Shown: positions 2,979 through 56,277 of the stretch, one piece after another
Numbering within the stretch: the stretch's first letter is position 1
Layout: the number at the start of each line of letters is the position of its first letter
Assembly: GCA_902614125.1 (NCBI GenBank)
Contig: CACMJW010000006.1
Coordinates: 1 to 64,000 of the forward strand
Direction: 5' to 3'
Origin: an uncultured Pelagibacteraceae bacterium
Lineage (GTDB): Bacteria; Pseudomonadota; Alphaproteobacteria; Pelagibacterales; Pelagibacteraceae
Length of the DNA: 64,000 nt
The notes under the pieces: model-generated
The model's input: the letters and a program-made list of their open reading frames with translations, nothing else
Told to the model about the DNA's origin: nothing
Databases searched by the model: none
Program-made: the position numbers and the translations under genes

Positions 2979-4239
2979 AAATAAAGTACAATTATTAAAT
3001 AAAAGATATAAAGCTGAAAAGAGATTTCGATTATACGGTCAAAGTGCAATTTTTATGGCACTTTTATTTTTAATAATCTTTATTTTTAAAATTTTTTCGA
3101 CAGGCTATTCAGCCTTTCAAAAAACTTGGCTTATTGTTCCAGTTACTTTTGATGCTGAATTAATGATGTTAGAGCAAAATCCTTCTAAAGAGGATTTAAA
3201 AGATGCTGATTATTACGATATAGCATTAAAATCAATGGCTGATTTAGATCCAAATGCTAATGAGAATCAAGAAAATGAGCTGAAGAGAATGGTTTCTTAC
3301 TTTTTCGAAAGAGAGATTAAAAGAGAACTTTTAAATGACCCTTCATTAATTGGAAAAACTAAAGATGTTTATTTAACTGCCTCAGATGATTTAGATCAAG
3401 TATTCAAAGGCAATTATCCAAGAGATTTACCTGAAGATCAAAGAAGAGTTACGGATTATCAATTAAAGATTTTCGATCAACTTGTAGAACTAGGAAAAGT
3501 TGAAAGTAAATTCAATTTAAGTTTTTTTACATATCCTGATTCAAGAGAAGCTGAATTAGCTGGTATAGCAAGCTCATTTATGGGATCAATATTTTCTATA
3601 CTTGTTTGTTTAATGATAGCGTTTCCTGTAGCAGTTCTAGCAGCTATTTATTTAGAGGAATTTGCTCCTAAAAACAGATTTACTGATTTTATTGAGGTAA
3701 ATATAAATAATTTAGCAGCAGTACCTTCAATTGTTTTTGGTCTTTTAGGACTGGGTATTTTACTTGCTGTATTTCAATTACCTAGGTCAACACCTTTAGT
3801 CGGTGGAATAACTTTATCGTTGATGACTTTACCAACAATTATTATTGCTTGTAGAGCATCTTTAAAAGCAGTTCCTCCAAGTATAAGAGAGGCAGCACTT
3901 GCAATGGGTGCTAGTAAAATGCAAACTACAATGCATCATACAGTTCCGTTATCTATGCCAGGGACTTTATCCGGTACAATAATTGGTTTGGCCCAAGCAT
4001 TAGGCGAAACGGCACCTTTGATATTGATTGGCATGGTGGCTTTTGTAAATACAATACCAGGATCTCCTTTAGATCCAGCTGCAAGTTTGCCAGTGCAAAT
4101 TTATATTTGGGCAGAGAGTGCTGAAAGAGGTTTTGTCGAGAAAGTTTCTGCCTGTATTATGGTTCTATTAGGATTTTTAATTATAATGAACTTATTTGCA
4201 CAAATAATTAGACATAAATTTGAAAAAAAATGGAGTTAA
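2971..4239 (+). CDS. pstA: Phosphate ABC transporter permease PstA
   Basis: Second permease subunit of Pst. One membrane segment near residue 30 is followed by a large acidic/charged periplasmic domain (about 50-190). The permease domain (about 200-415) has the EAA loop [20 protein letters not shown] and the motif [13 protein letters not shown] typical of PstA. The 422-aa length again exceeds enterobacterial PstA because of the periplasmic insertion. The start overlaps the pstC stop by 8 bp. Confidence 0.93.
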
Positions 4240-4240
4240 G

Positions 4241-4996
4241 ATGATAAAGATAAGTTCAAAAAATGTAGATGTTTTCTATGGAAAAAAACAAGCTCTATTT
4301 AATATAAATTTAGATATTGAAGAAAATCAAGTTACAGCACTAATTGGGCCTTCAGGTTGTGGTAAATCTACTTTTTTAAGATGTCTAAACCGAATGAATG
4401 ACGTAATTGATATATGTAGTGTAAAAGGGCAGATTATAATCAATGATTTTGATATCAATGACAAAAGTTGTGATGTTGTTAGATTAAGAGAAAAAATTGG
4501 GATGGTTTTTCAAAAACCAAATCCTTTTCCTAAAACTATTTATGAAAATATTTCTTATGGTCCAACAATTCATGGTATGGCTCAATCAAAGAATGAAATG
4601 GATGAAATAGTTGAAACTAGCTTAAAAAAGGCAGCATTATGGGAAGAGGTTCAAGATAGACTTCATGAGCCGGGCACAGGGTTATCAGGAGGTCAACAGC
4701 AAAGATTATGTATAGCAAGAGCTATTTCAGTTAAACCTGAAGTTATTCTCATGGATGAGCCTTGCTCTGCTTTAGATCCCATTGCTACAGCTCAAATTGA
4801 AGAATTAATTGATGAACTAAAAAAAGACCATACTATCATAATAGTCACTCACTCAATGGCACAAGCTGCAAGGGTCTCTCAAAATACTGGTTTTTTTCAC
4901 TTAGGAGAATTGATTGAACATGGCTCTACTGATAAAATATTTAAGAATCCTGAAAATAAAAAAACTCAGGATTATATCACTGGGAGGTTTGGATAA
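4241..4996 (+). CDS. pstB: Phosphate ABC transporter ATP-binding protein PstB
   Basis: ATPase of the Pst importer. Walker [10 protein letters not shown] near residue 36, signature LSGGQQQR, Walker B VILMDEP and the switch His in [13 protein letters not shown] are all intact; 251 aa is the normal length. A TTG at 4220 would extend it into pstA, but the ATG at 4241 lies one base after the pstA stop with GGAG five bases upstream, so I use it. Its stop overlaps the phoU start (TAATG). Confidence 0.96.
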
Positions 4997-54018: not shown

Positions 54019-54502
54019 AGTATACCTTTATATGAAGTAAATTATTAACACATAATGTTAAACTACTGTAATTATTATTTTTTTTATATTACTTAAAGTA
54101 AAATATAATATAGTAATACATCTAACCTATCATCTAATCATTAAAATTTTAATTTATATTTGGAGATTTCATCCGAATAAATCACATAACTAAATTAAAA
54201 TCCTTAATAATCAAGATAAATTAAACAAAGTAATCCAACAATCTAATAAATTAATGGTATTAATTTTAGAAAGGTGAGAGTACACAAATCGAAAAAATTA
54301 AATTTGTCTCAAATATTTAAATAAATAATAGATGAAAACTTGTAATTTCTATTAGTATTGCATTTATCGAATATAGCATTTAATGAGCCATAGAGGGGTC
54401 AATTTTAATGATTTATTGATATATAATGCAACTTATAGGTGTAATATAAATATAACAACTATATATGGGTAAAAATTAAAAAAATGTTGATTTTGCTTAC
54501 TT
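54019..54502. other. 484-bp gap with no recognisable gene
   Basis: Very AT-rich. I find no ORF of note on either strand, no tRNA and no clear terminator after the DMT transporter. One isolated Pho-like heptamer (CTGTAAT at 54066) has no partner. By far the longest empty stretch in an otherwise packed window, at the edge of the accessory patch. Confidence 0.6.
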
Positions 54503-54778
54503 TTAAACGAAAATTCCCTCTTTTTTCAAGAGTTTTTTCTTGGTTTTAATGCCTCCATGACCCGAATATCCACCTAGGGACCCGTCAGATCTGATAACTC
54601 TATGACAAGGTATTTTAGGTGCATTTGGGTTTTTTCCAACCGCATTTGCTACAGCTCGAGCAGCTTTTGGCTTATTTATGGCTTTTGCGACATCTAAATA
54701 GGTTCTAACTTGTCCTTTTGGGATAGTTTTTAGATAATTCCACACTTTCAACTGAAATTTAGTACCTTTTAGGATCAT
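54503..54778 (-). CDS. ogt: Minimal methylated-DNA-protein cysteine methyltransferase domain
   Basis: 91 aa, only the C-terminal Ada/Ogt catalytic domain: GTKFQLKVWNYLKTIPKGQV (4-23), helix-turn-helix AARAVANAVGKNPNAP, active site IPCHRVIRSDGSLGGYSG (about 55). The Cys is present (alkyltransferase-like proteins have Trp instead), so it should repair O6-alkylguanine. The N-terminal domain of Ogt (about 80 aa) is missing. A TTG at 54820 is possible, but that stretch forms a hairpin; ATG 54778 is preferred. Confidence 0.83.
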   Translation of the reverse strand: MILKGTKFQLKVWNYLKTIPKGQVRTYLDVAKAINKPKAARAVANAVGKNPNAPKIPCHRVIRSDGSLGGYSGHGGIKTKKKLLKKEGIFV

Positions 54779-54800
54779 TTTAAAGAAAAACCCTGTTACC

Positions 54801-54967
54801 TTGTACCTTTTTAGGCACAAAGAACAGTAGTTTTTGGCACGTCGTTGTATGCGCTACCGCCATGCCTTCCACCTCGCTATTTTAGCGCTACTCAGCGAAG
54901 TTTTCTGCCCTCTAGGCTTGAATCTCTCGATTTTTCCCTAGATGGTCAGTTAAGAGTTGCCTCTTAA
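54801..54967 (-). ncRNA. Candidate structured RNA, unidentified, with two GNRA tetraloops
   Basis: A stretch of about 50% GC (54836-54967, counted by eye) in very AT-rich surroundings. On the minus strand in order: hairpin TTAAGAG-GCAA-CTCTTAA (54967-54950); long helix 54949-54905 (CTGACC..TCTAGG with CCTAGA..GGCAG) capped by AATC-GAGA-GATT; CGCTA-AAA-TAGCG (54887-54875); GGCA/TGCC pairing (54866-54836); TTGTGCC/GGTACAA (54820-54801). GCAA and GAGA loops and a G-U pair exist only on the minus strand, which sets the orientation. It does not match tmRNA, SRP RNA, RNase P or riboswitches I know. It lies upstream of ogt and could be its leader. Confidence 0.55.
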
Positions 54968-55059
54968 TTCGTTAATAATTTAACATAAGTGCAATTTTAA
55001 AGGTATCACTTTATCGTTGAATTTAATGGTTTTTTAACACCTGTGAATAGCGTTAATAA

Positions 55060-55242
55060 CTAACTTGGCTTAACAATTATTAATATAAAATATGAAAAAT
55101 AAAACAGAACAGTCATAATACCTAAGAAGTAAACCTCTATAGATTTGCCATTTTTCTTAAACACCAAATAAGTAAGCAATGTTAATCCAAAAGAAATTAT
55201 CAAAAAATATATAGGCTCAATTGAGCCATCCATAGAGACCAT
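55060..55242 (-). CDS. Small membrane protein next to the recombinase
   Basis: About 60 aa from ATG 55242 (a GTG at 55278 would add 12 residues; ATG 55233 is also possible). Two membrane helices (about 10-26 and 36-56) split by KKNGKSIE. No known family. Divergent from the recombinase. Plausible but weakly supported as a gene. Confidence 0.42.
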   Translation of the reverse strand: MVSMDGSIEPIYFLIISFGLTLLTYLVFKKNGKSIEVYFLGIMTVLFYFSYFILIIVKPS

Positions 55243-55285
55243 AATATTAGATTTTAAACTATTGACATTTAAAATCACTTAATAT

Positions 55286-55323: not shown

Positions 55324-56277
55324 ATGAATGAACTAACTTCAGACTTAAAATTGCTTCATGAAGCAACTTTAAATAACTTAAAAAATTCCAAAGCAAGTAA
55401 TACTCTGAGAGCATATAAATCTGACTTTAAAGACTTTGGATCCTTTTGTGCAAAAAATGGATTAAATTCATTACCAACAGAACCAAAAATAGTCTCTATA
55501 TACCTCACTCATCTCTCTAAAAATTCAAAAATAAGCACTTTAAGACGAAGATTGGTATCAATTAGCATGATTCATAAAATGAAAGGGCATTATTTGGATA
55601 CCAAACATCCAATTATAGTTGAAAATTTAATGGGGATAAGAAGGGTTAAAGGAAGCATTCAAAAAGGAAAAAAACCAATACTAATCAAACATTTAAAATT
55701 AATTATTAATACAATAAATGAACAAAAAACGCAGGAAATAAAAAAATTTAGGGACAAATCATTAATATTAATTGGCTTTGGTGGTGGTTTTAGACGAACA
55801 GAGCTAATTTCAATTGATCATGAGGATTTAGAATTTGTACCTGAGGGTCTAAAAATTACGATTAAAAAATCAAAAACTGATCAATTTGGGGAGGGAATGA
55901 TTAAAGGACTGCCCTACTTCAGTAATGAAATTTACTGCCCTGTTAAAAATTTAAGAAAATGGCTTGAAATATCTAAGATCAAGTCTGGACCGATTTTTAG
56001 AAGATTTTCTAAAGGCTTAACATTAACAGATAAAAGACTTACTGACCAATCTGTTGTTTTATTAATGAAAAATTATTTAAATTTAGCAGGTATTGAGAAT
56101 AAAAATTTTGCAGGCCATAGTTTAAGATCAGGTTTTGCAACAGTTGCGGCGGAGTCAGGAGCAGACGAAAGAAGTATTATGGCTATGACGGGACATAAAA
56201 CTACTCAAATGGTAAGAAGATATATAAGAGAAGCAAACATTTTCAAAAATAATGCATTAAGTAAAATTAAAGTTTAA
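55324..56277 (+). CDS. Tyrosine recombinase / phage-type integrase
   Basis: 317 aa. N-terminal SAM-like core-binding domain (about 15-95: SNTLRAYKSDFKDFGSFCAK). Catalytic residues all present: Arg in GGGFRRTELISI (about 160), Lys in KKSKTDQFG (about 188), HSLRSGF (His-x-x-Arg, about 263), GHKTTQ (His, about 288) and nucleophile Tyr in RRYIREA (about 299). Shorter and simpler than phage integrases with arm-binding domains. No XerC/D housekeeping context. An inverted repeat precedes the ATG; the 3' end overlaps GT9 by 11 bp. Confidence 0.93.
   Translation: MNELTSDLKLLHEATLNNLKNSKASNTLRAYKSDFKDFGSFCAKNGLNSLPTEPKIVSIYLTHLSKNSKISTLRRRLVSISMIHKMKGHYLDTKHPIIVENLMGIRRVKGSIQKGKKPILIKHLKLIINTINEQKTQEIKKFRDKSLILIGFGGGFRRTELISIDHEDLEFVPEGLKITIKKSKTDQFGEGMIKGLPYFSNEIYCPVKNLRKWLEISKIKSGPIFRRFSKGLTLTDKRLTDQSVVLLMKNYLNLAGIENKNFAGHSLRSGFATVAAESGADERSIMAMTGHKTTQMVRRYIREANIFKNNALSKIKV

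Follow-up and report, generated by a model that had tools for sequence, protein, structure and literature searches.

The GC-rich island in the window (the whole 64,000-nucleotide stretch of DNA analysed, from an uncultured Pelagibacteraceae bacterium) is, by its match in sequence and structure, a copy of IMES-2 (RF02035), a known RNA family whose function is unexplained. It is probably the full-length SAR11 gene for a free-standing, trans-acting non-coding RNA with its own promoter and terminator, a fold containing a loop-loop kissing contact and a likely capacity to bind protein. An Rfam search of both strands placed the RNA core on the minus strand at positions 54974-54834 (161.5 bits, E 9.5e-44; the gathering score of the IMES-2 entry, from Rfam 15, is 54.7 bits). 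This cmscan match spans positions 1-141 of the 141-position model, is untruncated, includes all family hairpins and was recovered again in an Rfam search over the whole window. The remaining five rows from the scan of the locus were all under their respective family cut-offs. The initial annotation had taken the island for an unidentified RNA and possibly a new family, unless an Rfam check of both strands gave a significant match to a known one; that check gave a match far above the gathering score, and the claim of novelty falls. Its description of a GC island in AT-rich DNA was correct, with 47.5% GC over the 141 bases vs 28.4% across the window, a level attained by 0.06% of all 141-bp windows sampled at 20-bp steps, the island's own among them. 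A conserved open frame was sought in six frames of 96 distinct homologues, and each frame was open in only 0 to 2 of the 96. The locus is thus not a decayed protein gene, in agreement with the earlier view that no coding frame fits.

The IMES RNAs took their name in work on marine environmental sequence and are reportedly abundant in ocean RNA, and the original reports are said to have found IMES-2 transcribed in marine samples. To our knowledge, its naming came without a host or a job. We found no paper on the IMES-2 RNA in the open PMC literature, where the sole match to the word IMES-2 was a squid genome paper, and the accessible portions of PMC2864571, PMC5069720, PMC3840354 and PMC6429828 do not treat it. 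IMES-2 is also unnamed in the accessible portions of a survey of HTCC1062 that covers tmRNA, SRP RNA, RNase P RNA, riboswitches and other candidate RNAs (PMC2704228). Those portions describe the SAR11_0636 element of Candidatus Pelagibacter ubique as a structured RNA that is probably an ncRNA transcribed on its own and whose neighbours vary; by that description, it is a three-stem junction and so differs from the four serial hairpins of IMES-2 (PMC2704228). Nothing sets the window copy apart from the RF02035 family, and the Rfam match itself does not reveal the kissing helix, the terminator, the upstream elements or the empty sites described below. With IMES-2 tied to SAR11 genomes, and with its unit borders, its natural empty sites, the conservation upstream of it and a loop-loop contact that lends itself to testing, this orphan RNA of highly abundant marine bacteria is now open to pull-down, probing and comparison of related strains that carry or lack it.

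For the interval 54780-54974, the minus-strand fold has an energy of −69.4 kcal/mol and z = −6.64, and none of 200 shuffles did as well; on the plus strand z is −3.45, and 1 of 200 did as well. Together with the RF02035 match, the minus-strand fold bears out the earlier proposal of a structured RNA on that strand. Among 90 distinct homologous sequences (set A1), the family structure with the kissing helix is paired in 94.4% of 4049 cells and shows double changes at 26 of 45 pairs, with 0 of 500 shuffles as good, and slid versions of the structure pair in just 31.8-41.3% of cells. The covariation check on homologues suggested in the initial annotation thus came out positive for the family pairs. 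Hairpin 1 (54950-54967, minus strand, as are all features of the RNA) is the perfect 7-bp stem of that annotation; its loop is GCAA in all 90 A1 sequences, 100% of its cells are paired and 3 of its 7 pairs show double changes. Hairpin 2 (54905-54949) has an A-rich internal loop and a cap that is GAGA in 88 of the 90 sequences (GCAA and AAGA in one each), with double changes at 9 of 15 pairs; the cap region departs in the diverged genus g2. The two GNRA loops noticed earlier, in the GCAA stem at 54967-54950 and in the GAGA helix within 54949-54905, therefore both stand. Hairpin 3 (54871-54901), with an 8-bp stem and a 15-nt loop, shows double changes at all 8 pairs and is paired in 96.1% of cells. 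Hairpin 4 (54836-54866) has a stem of nine positions, one of which is standard in 0 of 90 sequences (here G opposite A), and a 13-nt loop, with double changes at 3 of 9 pairs. The unpaired invariant positions are mostly A, which would suit tertiary contacts more than a seed.

Comparison of homologues shows that loops 3 and 4 kiss, on the evidence of compensatory changes at 3 of 6 pairs. The segment GCGCUA in loop 3 (54883-54888) is complementary to UAGCGC in loop 4 (54856-54851), and the resulting 6-bp helix is paired in 96.7% of 540 cells of the 90 sequences. It contains seven double-changed cells vs 0.7 in shuffled data (0 of 500 shuffles as good), although 56 of 500 shuffles equal the native count of further pair types. 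Two of the six pairs are invariant, and non-standard pairs occur in A1 at 87-125 in 17 of 90 sequences and at 88-124 in one. A second set of 28 sequences that includes genus g2, picked to be diverse and fitted to a model lacking the kissing pairs, is paired in 94.0% of kissing cells and has 13 double-changed cells vs 3.5 in shuffled data (0 of 500); in this set the number of kissing pairs with double changes exceeds shuffles weakly (33 of 500) and further pair types do not exceed them (235 of 500). When the 25 loop combinations found among 96 sequences were re-dealt, the native total of loop matching was attained in 1 of 1000 pairings. In one combination, that of locus L129, the match shrinks to 4 bp. 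Purine riboswitches likewise hold two neighbouring hairpins side by side through loop-loop pairing. IMES-2 shares this kissing of adjacent hairpins but differs in having no enclosing three-way junction and in not being cis-acting.

The loops might instead kiss between molecules, making the RNA a homodimer or multimer, since the covariation fits pairing within and between molecules alike. The common form of loop 3 is self-complementary over 8 bases, and because of this palindrome the match sum over the 25 combinations is slightly higher for loop 3 with itself (155) than for loop 3 with loop 4 (150). However, the self-match of loop 3 drops to 3-4 bp in 7 of the 25 combinations, whereas loops 3 and 4 keep a match of at least 5 in 24; the contact that is conserved is therefore not a dimer through loop 3. 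Hairpins 3 and 4 also adjoin through a linker of 4-5 nt, which would favour an internal contact. We therefore infer that the kissing occurs within one molecule, and we give pairing between molecules a low, though appreciable, probability.

The RNA core forms part of a unit of about 281 bp (54779-55059, minus strand), delimited by comparison with related genomes in which all of it is missing. Comparison across loci also shows the strand, the single copy, a terminator hairpin and conserved upstream elements. The intrinsic-terminator-like feature (54786-54827) consists of a hairpin at 54827-54793 and a T-run at 54790-54786. A hairpin 3' of the Rfam core has z < −2 in 110 of 110 loci (mean −6.2) and is followed by a run of at least four Ts in 87; the 23 loci lacking the run include L036 of genus g5. 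The sequence of this hairpin varies between genera, while the RNA core is conserved. A third stem noted earlier at 54801-54820 does exist; it is the inner part of this terminator-like hairpin, however, and lies outside the RNA core.

Three conserved elements precede the core. An extended -10-like element, TGTTAAATT (54977-54985), carries the pattern TG[ATG]TA, whose spacing to the -35 element (RGTGAT in g1) is constant in 76 of 80 loci of genus g1; it is found at that place in 1 of 7 loci of g6, 0 of 20 of g5 and 0 of 6 of g2, and its role in a promoter is presumptive. The conserved AAGTGATA (55004-55011) lies in the -35 region with TCAAC just before it, and 109 of 110 loci have RGYGAT at -33 to -36, vs 1.9% of shuffled upstream sequences (within -60 to -25). 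Farther upstream, TTATTAACGCTATTCACAGG (55040-55059) resembles a DnaA box, and binding by DnaA is one way it might be read; TTWTNCACA with at most one mismatch is present in 106 of 110 loci (18 exact) vs about 22% of shuffles. The 110 loci are related, and these counts are thus not independent of one another. Roughly 53 bp of g2 upstream sequence still match a g6 genome at 80%, directly 5' of the IMES-2 copy in that genome. From this layout, promoter activity and the transcript ends can be predicted. A conserved and probably activator-controlled promoter would drive IMES-2, giving a transcript of about 185 nt that includes its own intrinsic terminator.

A promoter regulon shared with other genes was considered and rejected. 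The strict pattern CAAYNANNAAGTGATA, searched in 10 genomes, matched the IMES-2 upstream region in 3 of 5 carriers (G000, G015 and G164, and not G001 or G038). It otherwise matched at two chance-like sites elsewhere (in G001 and G020), and the pattern is too strict to be exhaustive.

IMES-2 is, judging from its neighbours, a stand-alone gene unit found in three unrelated contexts. In genus g1 the RNA lies between a divergent tyrosine recombinase gene and a downstream ogt; in the window the latter (MGMT DNA-binding domain; PF01035 E 5.1e-34, TIGR00589) is an ORF at 54503-54778 on the minus strand, outside the unit, its start at 54778 being our choice in a frame that is open to 54820. In genera g5 and g6 (eight loci with long flanks), the RNA lies between mnmA and an opposite-strand gene; at L039, MnmA was identified and the second gene had no family match. 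In g2 (two loci, L031 among them), it lies between an SNase-domain gene and an opposite-strand SRAP gene. All 10 long-flank loci outside g1 thus have their next gene on the opposite strand.

These contexts bear on the suggestion in the initial annotation that the RNA is an ogt leader. As a cis-regulatory leader or riboswitch, it would comprise an aptamer followed by a terminator hairpin opened by a ligand, and an aptamer with a terminator is indeed the layout of a transcriptional riboswitch; in g1 both lie immediately 5' of ogt on the same strand. In the eight g5/g6 loci and the two g2 loci, however, the RNA and its own hairpin are followed by a gene on the other strand, and since this holds in two of the three contexts, IMES-2 is not an ogt leader as a family. 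The terminator-like hairpin between RNA and ogt also differs in sequence among genera while the RNA core is conserved, and ogt stays in place in 18 genomes that lack the RNA. We consider regulation of ogt in cis extremely unlikely and retain the reading of IMES-2 as a free-standing gene.

Two minor features of the flanks may be mentioned. In L039, the mnmA frame (3811-4950) outruns its profile match, which stops at residue 365 of 379, and reaches into the IMES-2 upstream region, from which it apparently takes its stop codon; the mnmA frame of the remaining flanked g5/g6 loci likewise stops 52-64 bases 5' of the RNA. In the window, a 484-bp AT-rich stretch (54019-54502, mostly 15-25% GC) separates the EamA gene from the end of ogt; it holds no ORF of at least 50 aa and is long for a compact genome.

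Natural empty sites support the borders of the unit. Of the 157 IMES-2-negative genomes, 20 were tried, all from genus g1. The recombinase was kept in 18 of these 20, with ogt beside it in 18 of 18. The interval between the two genes is 258-300 bp in 10 of the 18, compared with 545 bp in the window. In L152, L154, L163 and L165, this interval consists of a short membrane-type ORF alone, with its stop abutting the ogt match; in the window the IMES-2 unit comes after an ORF that, by eye, looks similar. The other eight negatives have longer intervals, seven of them (719-1251 bp) with an ORF of 139-164 codons and one (L158, 525 bp) with an ORF of 72 codons. Comparison at this one locus thus shows presence and absence of the unit. 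Because recombinase and ogt are kept without it, what is accessory here is the RNA unit. The earlier idea of an RNA carried by an accessory patch is therefore half right.

IMES-2 presence is patchy on a tree of 58 recombinase proteins (40 from positive and 18 from negative genomes), which requires 11 parsimony changes for it, compared with 15.6 for shuffled labels, of which 3 of 500 were as low as 11. Well-supported branches force 2 of the 11 changes, and the tree fits gain and loss alike. The membrane-type ORF of the window (55060-55278, minus strand) has no Pfam match and, by eye, has counterparts in IMES-2-negative genomes.

Of 297 genomes in the order to which the window belongs, 140 have one IMES-2 match each; this count includes G230, in which a piece of IMES-2 lies at a contig end, and the search used stricter filters by which some weak matches may be lost. 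Among genomes at least 90% complete and at most 5% contaminated, 75 of 150 carry it, which argues against an essential role. In genus g5 it is present in 46 of 61 genomes, many of them incomplete, and in g2 in 6 of 8 as strongly diverged copies (62-80 bits). A DNA search with a g2 sequence matched 18 of the 297 genomes, strongly only in G001 and G007; the other 16 matches are short, and the one in G217 falls in the IMES-2 upstream region. The pattern of hairpin 1 and early hairpin 2 matched at least 120 stretches in named genomes, and among the matches listed 80 of 80 loci were titled Pelagibacteraceae, Pelagibacterales or Candidatus Pelagibacter, a kinship that would place the window in SAR11 as well. 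Model R1 run over 385 genomes of the class matched only in G000, the genome of the window; it missed the known positives G001 and G007, so the class-wide negative is weak. Two exact patterns intended to reveal phage carriage each matched 0 viral contigs, and since both require g1-like letters, diverged copies would escape them.

The SAR11 toolkit for RNA-based regulation seems to be without several usual parts. In profile searches run behind a first-look filter, Hfq, ProQ and CsrA were each matched in 0 of 15 SAR11 genomes, compared with 5, 1 and 3 of 14 control genomes, respectively; 6S RNA (RF00013) was matched in 0 of 24 SAR11 genomes and in 5 of 14 controls, including Caulobacter. Two candidate roles were rejected on these counts: a CsrA decoy of the CsrB/RsmY type (CsrA in 0 of 15 genomes) and an sRNA dependent on Hfq or ProQ (each in 0 of 15).

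An antisense-type sRNA, with an exposed seed for pairing to mRNAs, would also be a free-standing gene with promoter-like elements and a terminator-like hairpin, as trans-acting sRNAs are. The two GC-rich loops that could serve as seeds, however, covary with each other, the majority of the remaining positions are paired, and Hfq and ProQ have no match in all 15 genomes. We judge this reading unlikely. Much less probable still is that IMES-2 replaces 6S RNA as a polymerase-binding regulator. Such a replacement would suit a clade in which RF00013 has no recognisable match in 24 genomes while 5 of 14 controls have one. Canonical 6S RNA is a stand-alone bacterial ncRNA that forms one long hairpin with an open-promoter-like bubble. 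Its model of 187 positions is similar in length to IMES-2, but the architecture differs from four serial hairpins with a kissing contact. Furthermore, 12 of the 24 6S-negative genomes also have no IMES-2 match, and at the IMES-2 locus itself no 6S match appeared up to an E-value of 10.

The reading we prefer is binding to a dedicated partner. Four hairpins with A-rich internal loops and GNRA caps would be drawn by the 6-bp kiss between loops 3 and 4 into a compact tertiary fold. The conserved A-rich loops and linkers, the GNRA caps and the mutually paired GC-rich loops have the look of a protein-binding or ribonucleoprotein RNA. Since the usual partners of trans-acting RNAs were not found in the SAR11 genomes searched, this look leads us, with moderate confidence, to a model in which the structured RNA would bind one specific protein or ribonucleoprotein as a scaffold, decoy or cofactor and would not act as an antisense RNA. 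A bolder and doubtful extension is that IMES-2 is the prototype of a class of trans-acting RNAs independent of Hfq, ProQ, CsrA and 6S, locked by kissing, with its own protein, an activator at the -35 region and possibly DnaA, and carried on a unit that is mobile or lost among SAR11.

The DnaA-like boxes prompted us to consider siting of the RNA at oriC or the terminus, using GC-skew profiles of G015 and G001 built from 20 sampled stretches each. This siting was rejected, as the RNA of G001 lies at 303 kb and at no skew extreme. The neighbouring tyrosine recombinase (55324-56277 in the window), which has one match per genome, scores far under the XerD and XerC cut-offs (71 and 61 bits vs 330 and 335 bits); it might serve as a recombinase of the chromosome terminus. 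A cumulative GC-skew maximum and converging genes, a terminus-like arrangement, are found close to the locus both in the window and in G015.
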